Shown here piece after piece: positions 3,545 to 9,867 of a stretch of 23,691 bases of DNA. Position 1 is the first letter of the stretch, and the number at the start of each line of letters is the position of its first letter. A program made the position numbers and the translations under genes. The notes beneath the pieces are model-generated. The model searched no databases and had not been told where the DNA came from. It worked only from the letters and a program-made list of their open reading frames with translations. Source of the stretch: a virus; IMG/VR virus record IMGVR_UViG_3300029955_000144, positions 1-23,691 of that record. One strand, 5' to 3'.

Positions 3545-3578
3545 CCCGGTGGAGCCGGGACCAAAAGCGTCACAAAGC

Positions 3579-3607
3579 TACACAAACGACTAGATTCAGC
3601 CTATACT
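3579..3607 (+). promoter_or_regulatory. Candidate sigma70 promoter giving a leaderless mRNA
   Basis: TACACA (3579-3584) and TATACT (3602-3607) are 17 bases apart, matching 4/6 and 5/6 of consensus. The expected start point, about 6-8 bases after the -10 box, falls at or next to the ATG at 3614. That ATG has almost no ribosome-binding site (AGG one base away). This is one of the few true gaps between genes in the first 7 kb. A five-base-pair hairpin (3545-3559) precedes it but lacks a T-tract, so it is not a convincing terminator. Confidence 0.38.
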
Positions 3608-3613
3608 TTAGGC

Positions 3614-3907
3614 ATGAGCCCCGAAGAAGAGCAGGCCGAGCGCGTCTATATCCAGAGTGGTGCAGGTAGCCCCTACGGGAACATGGGCTCGAATCAGTTA
3701 CGGCTGGGTGTTCTCTATGGTTCTAATATCTGCCACGCCTTCGCTGCCCAAGTGAAGGAAGAGAACACCGGCCCGGCCATCATCCCTTGTGATGAGCAAC
3801 AGAACCCAATCGCCGGACCTGCTTTTTGGCAACCCGACACCCCAGGGAAGTTGTCCCGGTTGCTCGGATTGGTCGACGCATTCTTTGGCATCAAGGAGCC
3901 CAAATGA
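3614..3907 (+). CDS. Hypothetical protein, 97 aa
   Basis: An ATG frame after a 69-base gap. The product starts with an acidic segment (MSPEEEQAERVY) and continues with a mixed globular sequence; no membrane segment or known motif is seen. The ATG has no proper Shine-Dalgarno sequence and lies about seven bases downstream of a TATACT box, so translation may be leaderless. Its stop overlaps the next start (ATGA). It leads the group running into the terminase genes. Function unknown. Confidence 0.65.
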   Translation: MSPEEEQAERVYIQSGAGSPYGNMGSNQLRLGVLYGSNICHAFAAQVKEENTGPAIIPCDEQQNPIAGPAFWQPDTPGKLSRLLGLVDAFFGIKEPK

Positions 3908-7193: not shown

Positions 7194-7427
7194 ATGGCTA
7201 AAGACTGGATCGACCCCAGCGAAGCGGCAAGGATGCTCCACCAGATGTCGGTCGGGTATTTTCGGGAGCATTTCGTAAACCCGGATACGCGTACATGCAC
7301 TGACCTTGTTGTGCAGCGTTTCCATGGCCCCAAGGGGACACCGCGTTATAAAATCCTAACCATCAGTGTTATCCGGTATTTGCAGGCGCATACGATCACC
7401 GTGGGAGACAAGGACCAAGCGTCATAA
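7194..7427 (+). CDS. Possible winged-helix DNA-binding protein, 77 aa
   Basis: The ATG directly follows the previous stop (TAAATG), with GAGGA at 7181-7185. Residues 5-25 (WIDPSEAARMLHQMSVGYFRE) resemble the helix-turn-helix of excisionase/MerR-like small proteins, and the next part (RFHGPKGTPRYKI) could be the wing. Such proteins act as regulators or excisionases. As the last gene before the virion block, it might regulate the downstream genes. This is a fold-level guess with no close match recognised. Confidence 0.55.
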   Translation: MAKDWIDPSEAARMLHQMSVGYFREHFVNPDTRTCTDLVVQRFHGPKGTPRYKILTISVIRYLQAHTITVGDKDQAS

Positions 7428-7528
7428 ACGTAGGCAAGTTGTGGTCTGATAACACATACAGGCAACATTGCCACTATATTTTTAAATCGCATGATTGAAT
7501 CCGAGGATAGTCCTCAAAGGATTCAACC
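7428..7528 (+). promoter_or_regulatory. Intergenic control region with AT-rich tract and RBS hairpin
   Basis: This 101-base gap separates the accessory block from the putative virion genes. It holds a short hairpin GGCA-ACAT-TGCC (7461-7472) followed by TATATTTTTAAAT (7475-7487), which could be a weak terminator or promoter core. TTGCCA (7468-7473) with CATGAT (7490-7495) at 16 bases is a weak sigma70 candidate. A bulged hairpin then covers the next ribosome site: TTGAATCC (7495-7502) pairs with GGATTCAA (7519-7526), and GAGGA (7503-7507) with TCCTC (7511-7515). The AT-rich character is striking for this genome. Confidence 0.5.
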
Positions 7529-8164
7529 ATGGCCCTCCAGCTTCAGGTTATCGCCCCGGTCCACCTCCAGGCTGCGGGCTCCACGATTACCCTTCCGTTC
7601 TCCGGGACCGTCACCGTCAACTCCCCCGTGAGTGGCAACGGCGCCGGCACCTTCAACATCGATCCCCGCGACATCCAGAGCGCAACCGCCCTGGGCTGCT
7701 GGTGGCCCCTGAATACCACCCTTCAGGTCCCGGCGGCCAATGAGGCGGCCAGTCTGGAACCCGCTGGCGTCATCGCTGGCGTCATCGGCACCCAGACCGT
7801 TTGCGCCAACCTGCTCGGCGCGAACATGAACGTGACGACCGACCAGCAGTTCAACTGGGGCGGACTGAATGGCAACCCTGTGGGCGGCCAGTTCCTCGTC
7901 ACCGGCCTGCTCGCCTGGAATCCCAGCATCTCGCTCACCACCGCTGCGGGGGGGGCCTACAACACCACCGGCAAGTCGGGCGTGCTGATCGCCGCCGCCA
8001 CCGCCTATTCGTCCCTGACCGTCGCCAGCTCGGCCCAGCTCACCGCCGCCGCCGCGACCAGCGTCTTCACCTATACCCAGACGATGCCCTACTTCAGCCT
8101 CACCACCGGCCAGGGCGCCGCCGCCACCGCAAACATCGCTCTGCTCGGAATCTGCTTGGCCTAA
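7529..8164 (+). CDS. Putative abundant virion protein, beta-rich, 211 aa
   Basis: The protein is rich in Ala, Gly, Thr and Ser, with almost no charged residues and no lysine-rich or coiled-coil parts. It suggests a beta-sheet structural protein, such as a capsid decoration or fibre component. Codons are overwhelmingly C- or G-ending, as in the coat gene, implying high expression. AAGGA (7517-7521) is well placed for ATG 7529 but lies inside a hairpin. It contains a G8 run (about 7947-7954). It pairs with the next gene, and their position between accessory and lysis genes is unusual. Family not recognised; the virion role is inferred. Confidence 0.7.
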   Translation: MALQLQVIAPVHLQAAGSTITLPFSGTVTVNSPVSGNGAGTFNIDPRDIQSATALGCWWPLNTTLQVPAANEAASLEPAGVIAGVIGTQTVCANLLGANMNVTTDQQFNWGGLNGNPVGGQFLVTGLLAWNPSISLTTAAGGAYNTTGKSGVLIAAATAYSSLTVASSAQLTAAAATSVFTYTQTMPYFSLTTGQGAAATANIALLGICLA

Positions 8165-8167
8165 CCG

Positions 8168-8186
8168 GTCCTCTGACCTGGAGGAC
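8168..8186 (+). promoter_or_regulatory. Hairpin covering the ribosome-binding site of the next gene
   Basis: GTCCTC (8168-8173) pairs with GAGGAC (8181-8186) around a seven-base loop, with a possible extra G-U pair outside. The right arm contains most of GGAGGA (8180-8185), the Shine-Dalgarno site of the gene at 8192. The hairpin could hold translation low until opened by ribosomes finishing the upstream gene or by a protein. A similar TCCTC-containing hairpin precedes the upstream gene. Confidence 0.5.
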
Positions 8187-8191
8187 TCGTA

Positions 8192-9070
8192 ATGCCAATC
8201 CAACTCGCACTTCCGCCCAACCTGATCACGGACAACATGCTCCCCACGCTGCCTGTGGGGCTGCTCAAGGCGATCCAGCGCAATGTGGTGACGCCCCTGT
8301 TGCTGACGGGGCGCAACCCTGCGGCTGGCACCACCCTGGCCGATCTCTGGGGGTTCCCGGCGACCACGGCCGGCGCCACCCAGTATGTCCGGGCCAACCC
8401 GACTGCTGGCTATACCCTGGTGGTCTGCTCGGACAGCACGGCGGACGCATCGGCCGGGACCGGCGCCCAACAGGTGGCCATCAGCTACCTGGACACGTCC
8501 TACCAGCCCCACACCGCCGTCTTTGTCCTCAACGGCCAGACGATGGTTTCCGCTGCGGCCCAGCTGGACGGGGTGACCGGACCTTTCACGATCACCAACT
8601 GCCTGCGGAACAACGGGGCCGAAGTGGTCGCCGTTGGGTCTGGCGGCTCCGCTGCTGGAAACATCTATATCGGCGCCACCCAGACCTTCACGCTCGGCGT
8701 CCCTCAGTCCCCGGCTCTAATCTATGACTGCATCCTGGCCGGCGACAACAACGACAGCACCGCTAATTTCACCATTCCGGCCGGCTTCTTCGGGATGATC
8801 TTCCAGCTTCTTCCGGCCATCAACGATGTCACCGCGACGGCCAAGTTTGGGAAGATCCGCCTGACCACCACGACCGGGGCCAACGGGATCGCTCTGAAAT
8901 TCGATCTGGGAGGCGTCAGCTCCAACAACAACCCCGACACCATCAGCCTTGGCTTGCTGCCGATCATCCAGCCGCAGAGCGATATCGACATCCAGGCCAT
9001 CACCTCCGCAACGACCGAAGTTGGCTGCGCCAACATGCTGGTTCTCTGGCCCTCCATCACGACCTATTAG
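8192..9070 (+). CDS. Putative abundant virion protein, beta-rich, 292 aa
   Basis: A low-charge, Thr/Ala/Gly/Asn-rich protein with alternating hydrophobic patterns. Segments such as YLDTSYQPHTAVFVLNGQT (about residues 99-117) resemble beta-strand repeats seen in phage structural or head-fibre proteins. Codon choice is strongly C/G-ending, as in the coat gene. ATG 8192 has GGAGGA six bases upstream, within a hairpin. It follows a similarly composed gene after a 27-base gap, suggesting that the two products assemble together. A receptor-binding or decoration role is possible. No family was recognised with certainty. Confidence 0.72.
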   Translation: MPIQLALPPNLITDNMLPTLPVGLLKAIQRNVVTPLLLTGRNPAAGTTLADLWGFPATTAGATQYVRANPTAGYTLVVCSDSTADASAGTGAQQVAISYLDTSYQPHTAVFVLNGQTMVSAAAQLDGVTGPFTITNCLRNNGAEVVAVGSGGSAAGNIYIGATQTFTLGVPQSPALIYDCILAGDNNDSTANFTIPAGFFGMIFQLLPAINDVTATAKFGKIRLTTTTGANGIALKFDLGGVSSNNNPDTISLGLLPIIQPQSDIDIQAITSATTEVGCANMLVLWPSITTY

Positions 9071-9078
9071 GAGTGCCG

Positions 9079-9522
9079 ATGTCCGAACATTTCACCCTCG
9101 ATGACCTGACGCGGAGCCAAACGGCCTCGCGGAAGGGCATCGATAACACGCCTCCCCAACACGCTATCGACAACCTCGCCACGCTGTGCAGCGACCTGTT
9201 GGAACCAGCACGGGCACTCCTTGGGGTGCCTATTTCCGTTGACTCGGGGTTCCGGAGCGAGGCTTTGAACGAAGCGGTTGGGGGGGCGAAGTCTTCGGCA
9301 CACCTTGACGGGCGAGCTGCTGACCTAGTGCCGCAGGGCATGGCGCTGCAAGCCGCCTTCGACATCCTGCGCAAGTCCAACCTGCCCTACGACCAAGTCA
9401 TCTTCGAATGCATGGCCTGGATCCATCTGGCCATCGCCCGCCCCGGTGAAACCCCCCGGCGCATGGCCCTCACCGCTGCCGGTGGCCCTGGCCATTGGTC
9501 CTACCAGGAGGTGCAGCCATGA
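9079..9522 (+). CDS. Endolysin, peptidase M15 family (Peptidase_M15_3 type)
   Basis: This 147 aa protein has the M15 zinc site in order: SGFRS (57-61), SAHLDGRAADL with His75 and Asp82 as ligands, Glu110 as likely catalytic acid, and WIHLAI with His116 as third ligand. It should cleave peptide cross-links in the host cell wall at lysis. It has no signal peptide, so it depends on the holin encoded downstream. ATG 9079 is preferred over GTG 9073 because AGGAG (9069-9073) is five bases upstream. It overlaps the next gene by four bases. Confidence 0.88.
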   Translation: MSEHFTLDDLTRSQTASRKGIDNTPPQHAIDNLATLCSDLLEPARALLGVPISVDSGFRSEALNEAVGGAKSSAHLDGRAADLVPQGMALQAAFDILRKSNLPYDQVIFECMAWIHLAIARPGETPRRMALTAAGGPGHWSYQEVQP

Positions 9523-9743: not shown

Positions 9744-9750
9744 GGGACGA

Positions 9751-9867
9751 ATGGACCCCGATGATCCCTACGACGAGGACCCGTATGGCGTCCCATTACC
9801 GGAGGACCCACGATGGGAATTGACATTACTGGCATCGGCTCTATCGCTGATCTGGCATCCAGTGTAA
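9751..9867 (+). CDS. Possible small overlapping protein, 38 aa
   Basis: ATG 9751 has GAGGG (9742-9746) close upstream. It encodes a very acidic, proline-rich start (MDPDDPYDEDPYGVPLPEDP) and a hydrophobic end (LTLLASALSLIW). It overlaps the first 55 bases of the holin gene in another frame. A rival 27-codon frame (9740-9823) overlaps the previous stop as ATGA but encodes an implausible Arg/Thr-rich peptide. It could be a translated leader coupling to the holin. Low confidence. Confidence 0.28.
   Translation: MDPDDPYDEDPYGVPLPEDPRWELTLLASALSLIWHPV

Follow-up and report, generated by a model that had tools for sequence, protein, structure and literature searches.

Why do two neighbouring genes in the head region of a phage genome both begin at ribosome-binding sites (RBSs) that are closed by RNA hairpins? 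The question is raised by 23.7 kb of DNA from an uncultured tailed phage (the window; 23,691 nt, the whole stretch of DNA that was analysed). The window carries a P22-type head module with genes for TerL (4610), portal (10734), scaffold (12875), a protein of the P22 coat family (13704) and a gp10-like closure protein (16548). The two genes, P1 (7529..8164, + strand; 211 aa) and P2 (8192..9070, + strand; 292 aa), are located among these head genes, between TerL and portal, together with lysis genes for an M15-type endolysin (9073-9522) and a holin (9813). P1 is preceded by a non-coding leader of 101 nt (7428..7528, + strand), and a gap of 27 nt separates its stop codon (8162-8164) from P2. Most other genes in the window begin at stop-start overlaps, a contrast to which the original prediction rightly drew attention. 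We propose that the first hairpin holds P1 back and that P2 follows P1 by translational coupling through the second hairpin, a serial gating to which we give an even chance of being correct.

Two features lie further upstream in the window. The mostly intergenic stretch at 3546-3619 is 97% identical in relatives, and a promoter-like TATACT precedes the start at 3614. A 122-aa protein encoded at 6825-7193 matches phrog_1365 (function unassigned) and, judging by its HExxH-like motif (HECVH), is possibly a small metalloprotease.

Two consecutive ribosome-binding sites closed by hairpins

The core of the first hairpin (H1; 7495..7526, + strand), as originally predicted, has the form TTGAATCC-GAGGA-UAG-UCCUC-AAA-GGATTCAA. 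Its lower helix of 8 bp pairs 7495-7502 (TTGAATCC) with 7519-7526 (GGATTCAA), and its upper helix of 5 bp pairs 7503-7507 (GAGGA) with 7511-7515 (TCCTC) around the UAG loop, leaving AAA at 7516-7518 bulged. The Shine-Dalgarno (SD) sequence of P1, AAGGA at 7517-7521, is caught in this structure, with its GGA paired to TCC at 7500-7502. When 91 nt were folded, CATG at 7490-7493 also paired with CATG at 7528-7531, extending H1 in full to 7490..7531 and closing the P1 start codon too, so that SD and start codon both lie within a helix, as the SD and/or AUG do in T4 genes of the e/soc type. Pair probabilities were 0.9-1.0 even in a 500-nt context (0.76 for the pair 7507/7511).

The second hairpin (H2; 8167..8187, + strand) starts 3 nt downstream of the stop codon of P1. 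It is a stem of 8 bp with a 5-nt loop, GGTCCTCT-GACCT-GGAGGACT, in which 8167-8174 (GGTCCTCT) pair with 8180-8187 (GGAGGACT). The SD of P2, GGAGGA at 8180-8185, is wholly paired within it. Core pair probabilities were 0.95-1.0 in a 600-nt context, and that of the outer G-U pair was 0.81.

Folding thus confirmed that two hairpins occur where they had been predicted and that each closes an SD. We computed the cost of opening the RNA over -16..-4 relative to the start and ranked 34 positions of the window, including two that are not start codons. The two starts were the costliest, at 14.9 kcal/mol for 8192 (rank 1 of 34) and 12.6 kcal/mol for 7529 (rank 2 of 34). When the SD was kept and its flanks were shuffled, the observed cost was matched in none of 1000 shuffles at 7529 and in 3 of 1000 at 8192; random sites on the + strand were as costly in 3.2% (7529 value) and 0.65% (8192 value) of cases. 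For its own sequence, each RBS is therefore closed much more tightly than expected by chance. Folds of 91 nt gave z values of -1.6 for H1 and -2.9 for H2, so H1 is notable for where it folds and not for its total stability.

Closed starts also occur in other phages. Among 157 predicted genes from phages of similar G+C, 14 reached 12.5 kcal/mol and 5 reached 14.8 kcal/mol; since 7 of the 10 costliest were called from GTG or TTG, some of these starts are probably miscalled and the resulting share of about 9% is an upper figure. None of 126 adjacent gene pairs in these phages had both starts at 12.5 kcal/mol or above, where independence predicts about one, and adjacency alone is thus suggestive, not decisive.

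Conservation and distribution of the hairpins

Relatives with both genes and both hairpins were confined to three near-identical IMG/VR contigs (L002-L004, the same as L030-L032), and degenerate patterns of the hairpins run over IMG/VR matched only these three. Every core-stem base of H1 and H2 is unchanged in them; they amount to a single relative, in which no covariation signal is possible. The leader differs from theirs at 1 of 101 positions, compared with 7.7-12.4% in flanking genes, and the 27-nt gap between P1 and P2 differs at one position, with third codon positions differing by 12.3% in P1 and 7.5% in P2. The leader change (7454 A>G) falls outside H1, and the gap change (8189 G>A) breaks a weak outer pair with 8165. 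Nor are the hairpins alone in being so conserved here: the gap between a lipoprotein-like gene and the holin (9744-9812) has no changes in 69 positions while neighbouring coding DNA differs by 4-9%.

The proteins are far more widespread. The P1 C-terminal domain was found in about 200 IMG/VR stretches from uncultured phages and the P2 family in more than 100, and none of the distant P1 or P2 relatives whose leaders we examined has the hairpins of the window (P1 relatives L166-L168, matched from residue 5, were left out of the leader comparison). Annotated phages yielded no P1 relative and one distant P2 relative, MW202879, which lacks the hairpin; no P1 relative was found on plasmids, and Rfam returned nothing relevant. 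In the nearest outside relative of P2, contig L039 (40-43%), the RBS is open (6.1 kcal/mol). The absence of the hairpins from distant relatives and this open RBS argue against serial gating. Alignment with L039 also backs the P2 start (MPMNFALPP in the window, MPIQLALPP in L039).

Two sets of candidates in relatives were rejected. A hairpin at the P2 start of a P22-like clade (L073-L086; opening 9.1-9.6 kcal/mol) appeared convergent, but the stretch can be read as the coding end of the upstream gene (ATGA overlap), and L051 lacks the pairs. In three P1 relatives (L170, L172 and L176; 10-11.5 kcal/mol) the RBS is closed by downstream coding sequence, a different arrangement; at L170 2755, L172 3941 and L176 1063, a 9-bp stem pairs the RBS with the first codons (GCAACGTGA...CGCGTTGC). 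L039 has a further link to the window in its M15-type endolysin, which is 81% identical (window 9073-9522, L039 2488-2922). Its P2 homologue lies close to that endolysin, and it has no match to the terminase, portal or coat proteins of the window. The endolysin match suggests that lysis genes and P2 may form a module moving between phages.

The narrow distribution bears on whether the hairpins are regulatory at all. They might only tune basal expression, fixing a low, unregulated initiation rate, and both the share of equally closed genes in phages of similar G+C and the lack of conservation outside one clade are in keeping with this. However, two strong stems occur consecutively, the second of them covering a strong SD and set exactly behind a stop codon; low output could be had more simply from a weak SD. 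We consider fixed tuning unlikely, though worth keeping in view beside serial gating.

Proposed opening of H1 and H2

If H1 is a gate for P1, something must open it. The preceding gene stops at 7427, leaving about 60 nt to the H1 stem, a distance too great for coupling to open H1 readily. Removal of the 5′ side of the RNA was effective in our calculations: the opening cost of P1 fell from 12.8 kcal/mol for a 5′ end at 7488 to 4.8 for 7498 and 4.3 for 7502, and a transcript starting inside the 5′ arm would therefore free the P1 RBS. The sole sigma-70-like match in 7300-8300, TTGCCA-16-CATGAT (7468-7495), is weak, with 0.4 expected by chance; it ends at 7495, which would place the transcript start near 7502. 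The P1 leader showed no T4-type late promoter (TATAAATA). We also considered H1 as a terminator and rejected this, as no terminator-like site was found. An out-of-frame ORF (7491-7628) begins with an ATG at the base of H1 and overlaps the P1 start; it lacks an SD, and a ribosome translating it would melt H1.

In phage T4, soc is a head decoration gene, as P1 perhaps is. RBS-closing hairpins are present in long transcripts of T4 e, soc, 49 and I-TevI (PMC3014915). For e, soc and 49, the long early transcripts are silent and the short late ones are translated, and the silent form cuts lysozyme synthesis 100-fold (PMC3014915). In these genes the SD and/or AUG lies in a helix, and transcription from a point inside the 5′ arm would release the RBS, as computed for H1; the present phage differs in being unrelated to T4 and in lacking a mapped late promoter. 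By this analogy, H1 is most plausibly an RBS-closing leader of the kind found in T4 e and soc. H1 could alternatively be a DNA operator for a transcription factor near a leader promoter, or a 5′ stem that stabilizes the mRNA, its overlap with the SD being incidental. The 8-bp inverted repeat (TTGAATCC/GGATTCAA) does lie in a conserved, promoter-like AT-rich region of 101 non-coding nt. Pairing of the start codon and the asymmetric bulge nevertheless suit RNA better than a DNA dyad, and no second copy of the repeat occurs among the reported repeat families, so we think this improbable and prefer H1 as an RNA gate.

For H2, the position after the P1 stop codon points to the ribosome itself. The front of a ribosome terminating at the P1 stop should lie at about 8171-8175. 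With upstream RNA masked as far as 8171, the computed cost of freeing the P2 SD drops from 14.8 kcal/mol to 5.2, and with masking as far as 8175 it drops to 4.2. The downstream RBS is thus closed and, by computation, can be opened by an upstream ribosome bound at the stop. This position and the fall in opening cost together make up the anatomy of translational coupling by RNA unfolding, and H2 is most readily interpreted as a hairpin for translational coupling. Known cases of such coupling are f1 VII/IX, MS2 coat/lysis and rpmI-rplT (PMC12548453), in which, as at H2, a hairpin closes a downstream RBS within reach of the upstream ribosome. H2 differs from them in its spacing of +27 nt and in lying wholly after the stop codon, and its coupling is a predicted one. 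Both arrangements, the RBS-closing leader and the coupling hairpin, are already known in other phages.

A stable stem placed directly after a stop codon also resembles ribosome termination structures, which are common at such sites and have been described as insulators against reinitiation (PMC7518266). That a stable post-stop structure can insulate in this way counts against serial gating, and H2 could on this model shield P2 from ribosomes leaving P1. Unlike those structures, however, H2 includes the SD of the gene that follows, so that independent starts would be blocked too and P2 would hardly be made. Insulation is for this reason less likely than coupling, and we rate it as quite improbable.

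Protein products and the proposed control of the pair

The suggestion that P1 and P2 are virion genes is probably correct. P2 belongs to the phrog_8198 family (function unassigned), which 26 of 29 aligned P2 relatives match at E 0.001 (E 0.004 for P2 of the window) and which lies between portal and scaffold in the P22-like contigs L073-L086. The P2 model (pLDDT 75) contains beta domains; among solved structures, these are matched best by the cement proteins of KHP40 and KHP30 (Z 8.5). The model of P1, which has a C-terminal GANMNVTTDQ domain, is poorer (pLDDT 68), with cement proteins among its best matches at Z 6.4-7.0 (GP4, Z 7.0; Pam1, Z 6.8; also KHP30/40). Like the cement proteins of Pam1, GP4 and KHP30/40 (PDB 7eel, 8h89, 7dn2, 7dou), P1 and P2 may have a small, beta-rich jelly-roll/Ig-like fold; the matches are weak (Z 6.4-8.5, in the range of common arrangements), model confidence is low to middling, and no sequence relationship was found. 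P1 and P2 are likely head decoration (cement) proteins, P1 probably with a jelly-roll/Ig-like fold and P2 probably a virion protein with jelly-roll-like domains.

The original prediction had also pointed to GTCCTC in both hairpins. The sequence is indeed there (7510-7515 and 8168-8173), but it is misleading as a common motif because its role differs. In H1 it forms the 3′ arm of the upper helix, where its partner is GAGGA at 7503-7507 and the SD is left untouched; in H2 it forms the 5′ arm, and its partner there is the SD itself. Its recurrence is unsurprising, since any stem that pairs with GAGGA-type purines would have such a pyrimidine stretch. The two sites do not present the same structural motif: arm order is reversed, the loops are UAG and GACCU, and bulge and length differ, so a common protein-binding motif is not supported. 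Autorepression, in which P1, P2 or some other virion protein would bind both hairpins and limit its own production in the manner of coat or ribosomal proteins, would fit the closure of both RBSs in adjacent structural genes but is very unlikely, given stems without a common motif, searches of Pfam and PHROGs that found no RNA-binding domain in P1 or P2, and coupling that makes a second operator unnecessary. Of the coordinated translational control that had been proposed, coordination of the pair is likely to hold, while a shared operator or autoregulation is not, since the stems differ and coupling accounts for H2, which hence needs no protein regulator.

The serial gating that we propose would work as follows. 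H1 would close the P1 SD and start codon, and transcripts arriving from upstream would yield little P1; H2 would close the P2 SD and prevent ribosomes from starting unaided on P2. A ribosome ending P1 at 8162-8164 would cover the 5′ arm of H2 (8167-8174), freeing the SD for translation of P2. We infer that P2 follows P1 by RNA-unfolding coupling, and whatever opens H1 would thereby control both genes. The likeliest opener would be a transcript specific to a phage stage that starts inside the 5′ arm, as for T4 e and soc. It is a long shot that H1 is instead a switch read by some factor of the phage or the host, free decoration protein for example, with H2 relaying the signal to P2 in a two-hairpin relay that would tune virion stoichiometry in P22-like phages. 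Serial gating indicates no new mechanism. If it is right, a P22-like phage would join the few cases in which virion decoration genes are restrained by RBS hairpins, and P1 and P2 would offer a compact, testable pair made up of one gate and one coupling hairpin.
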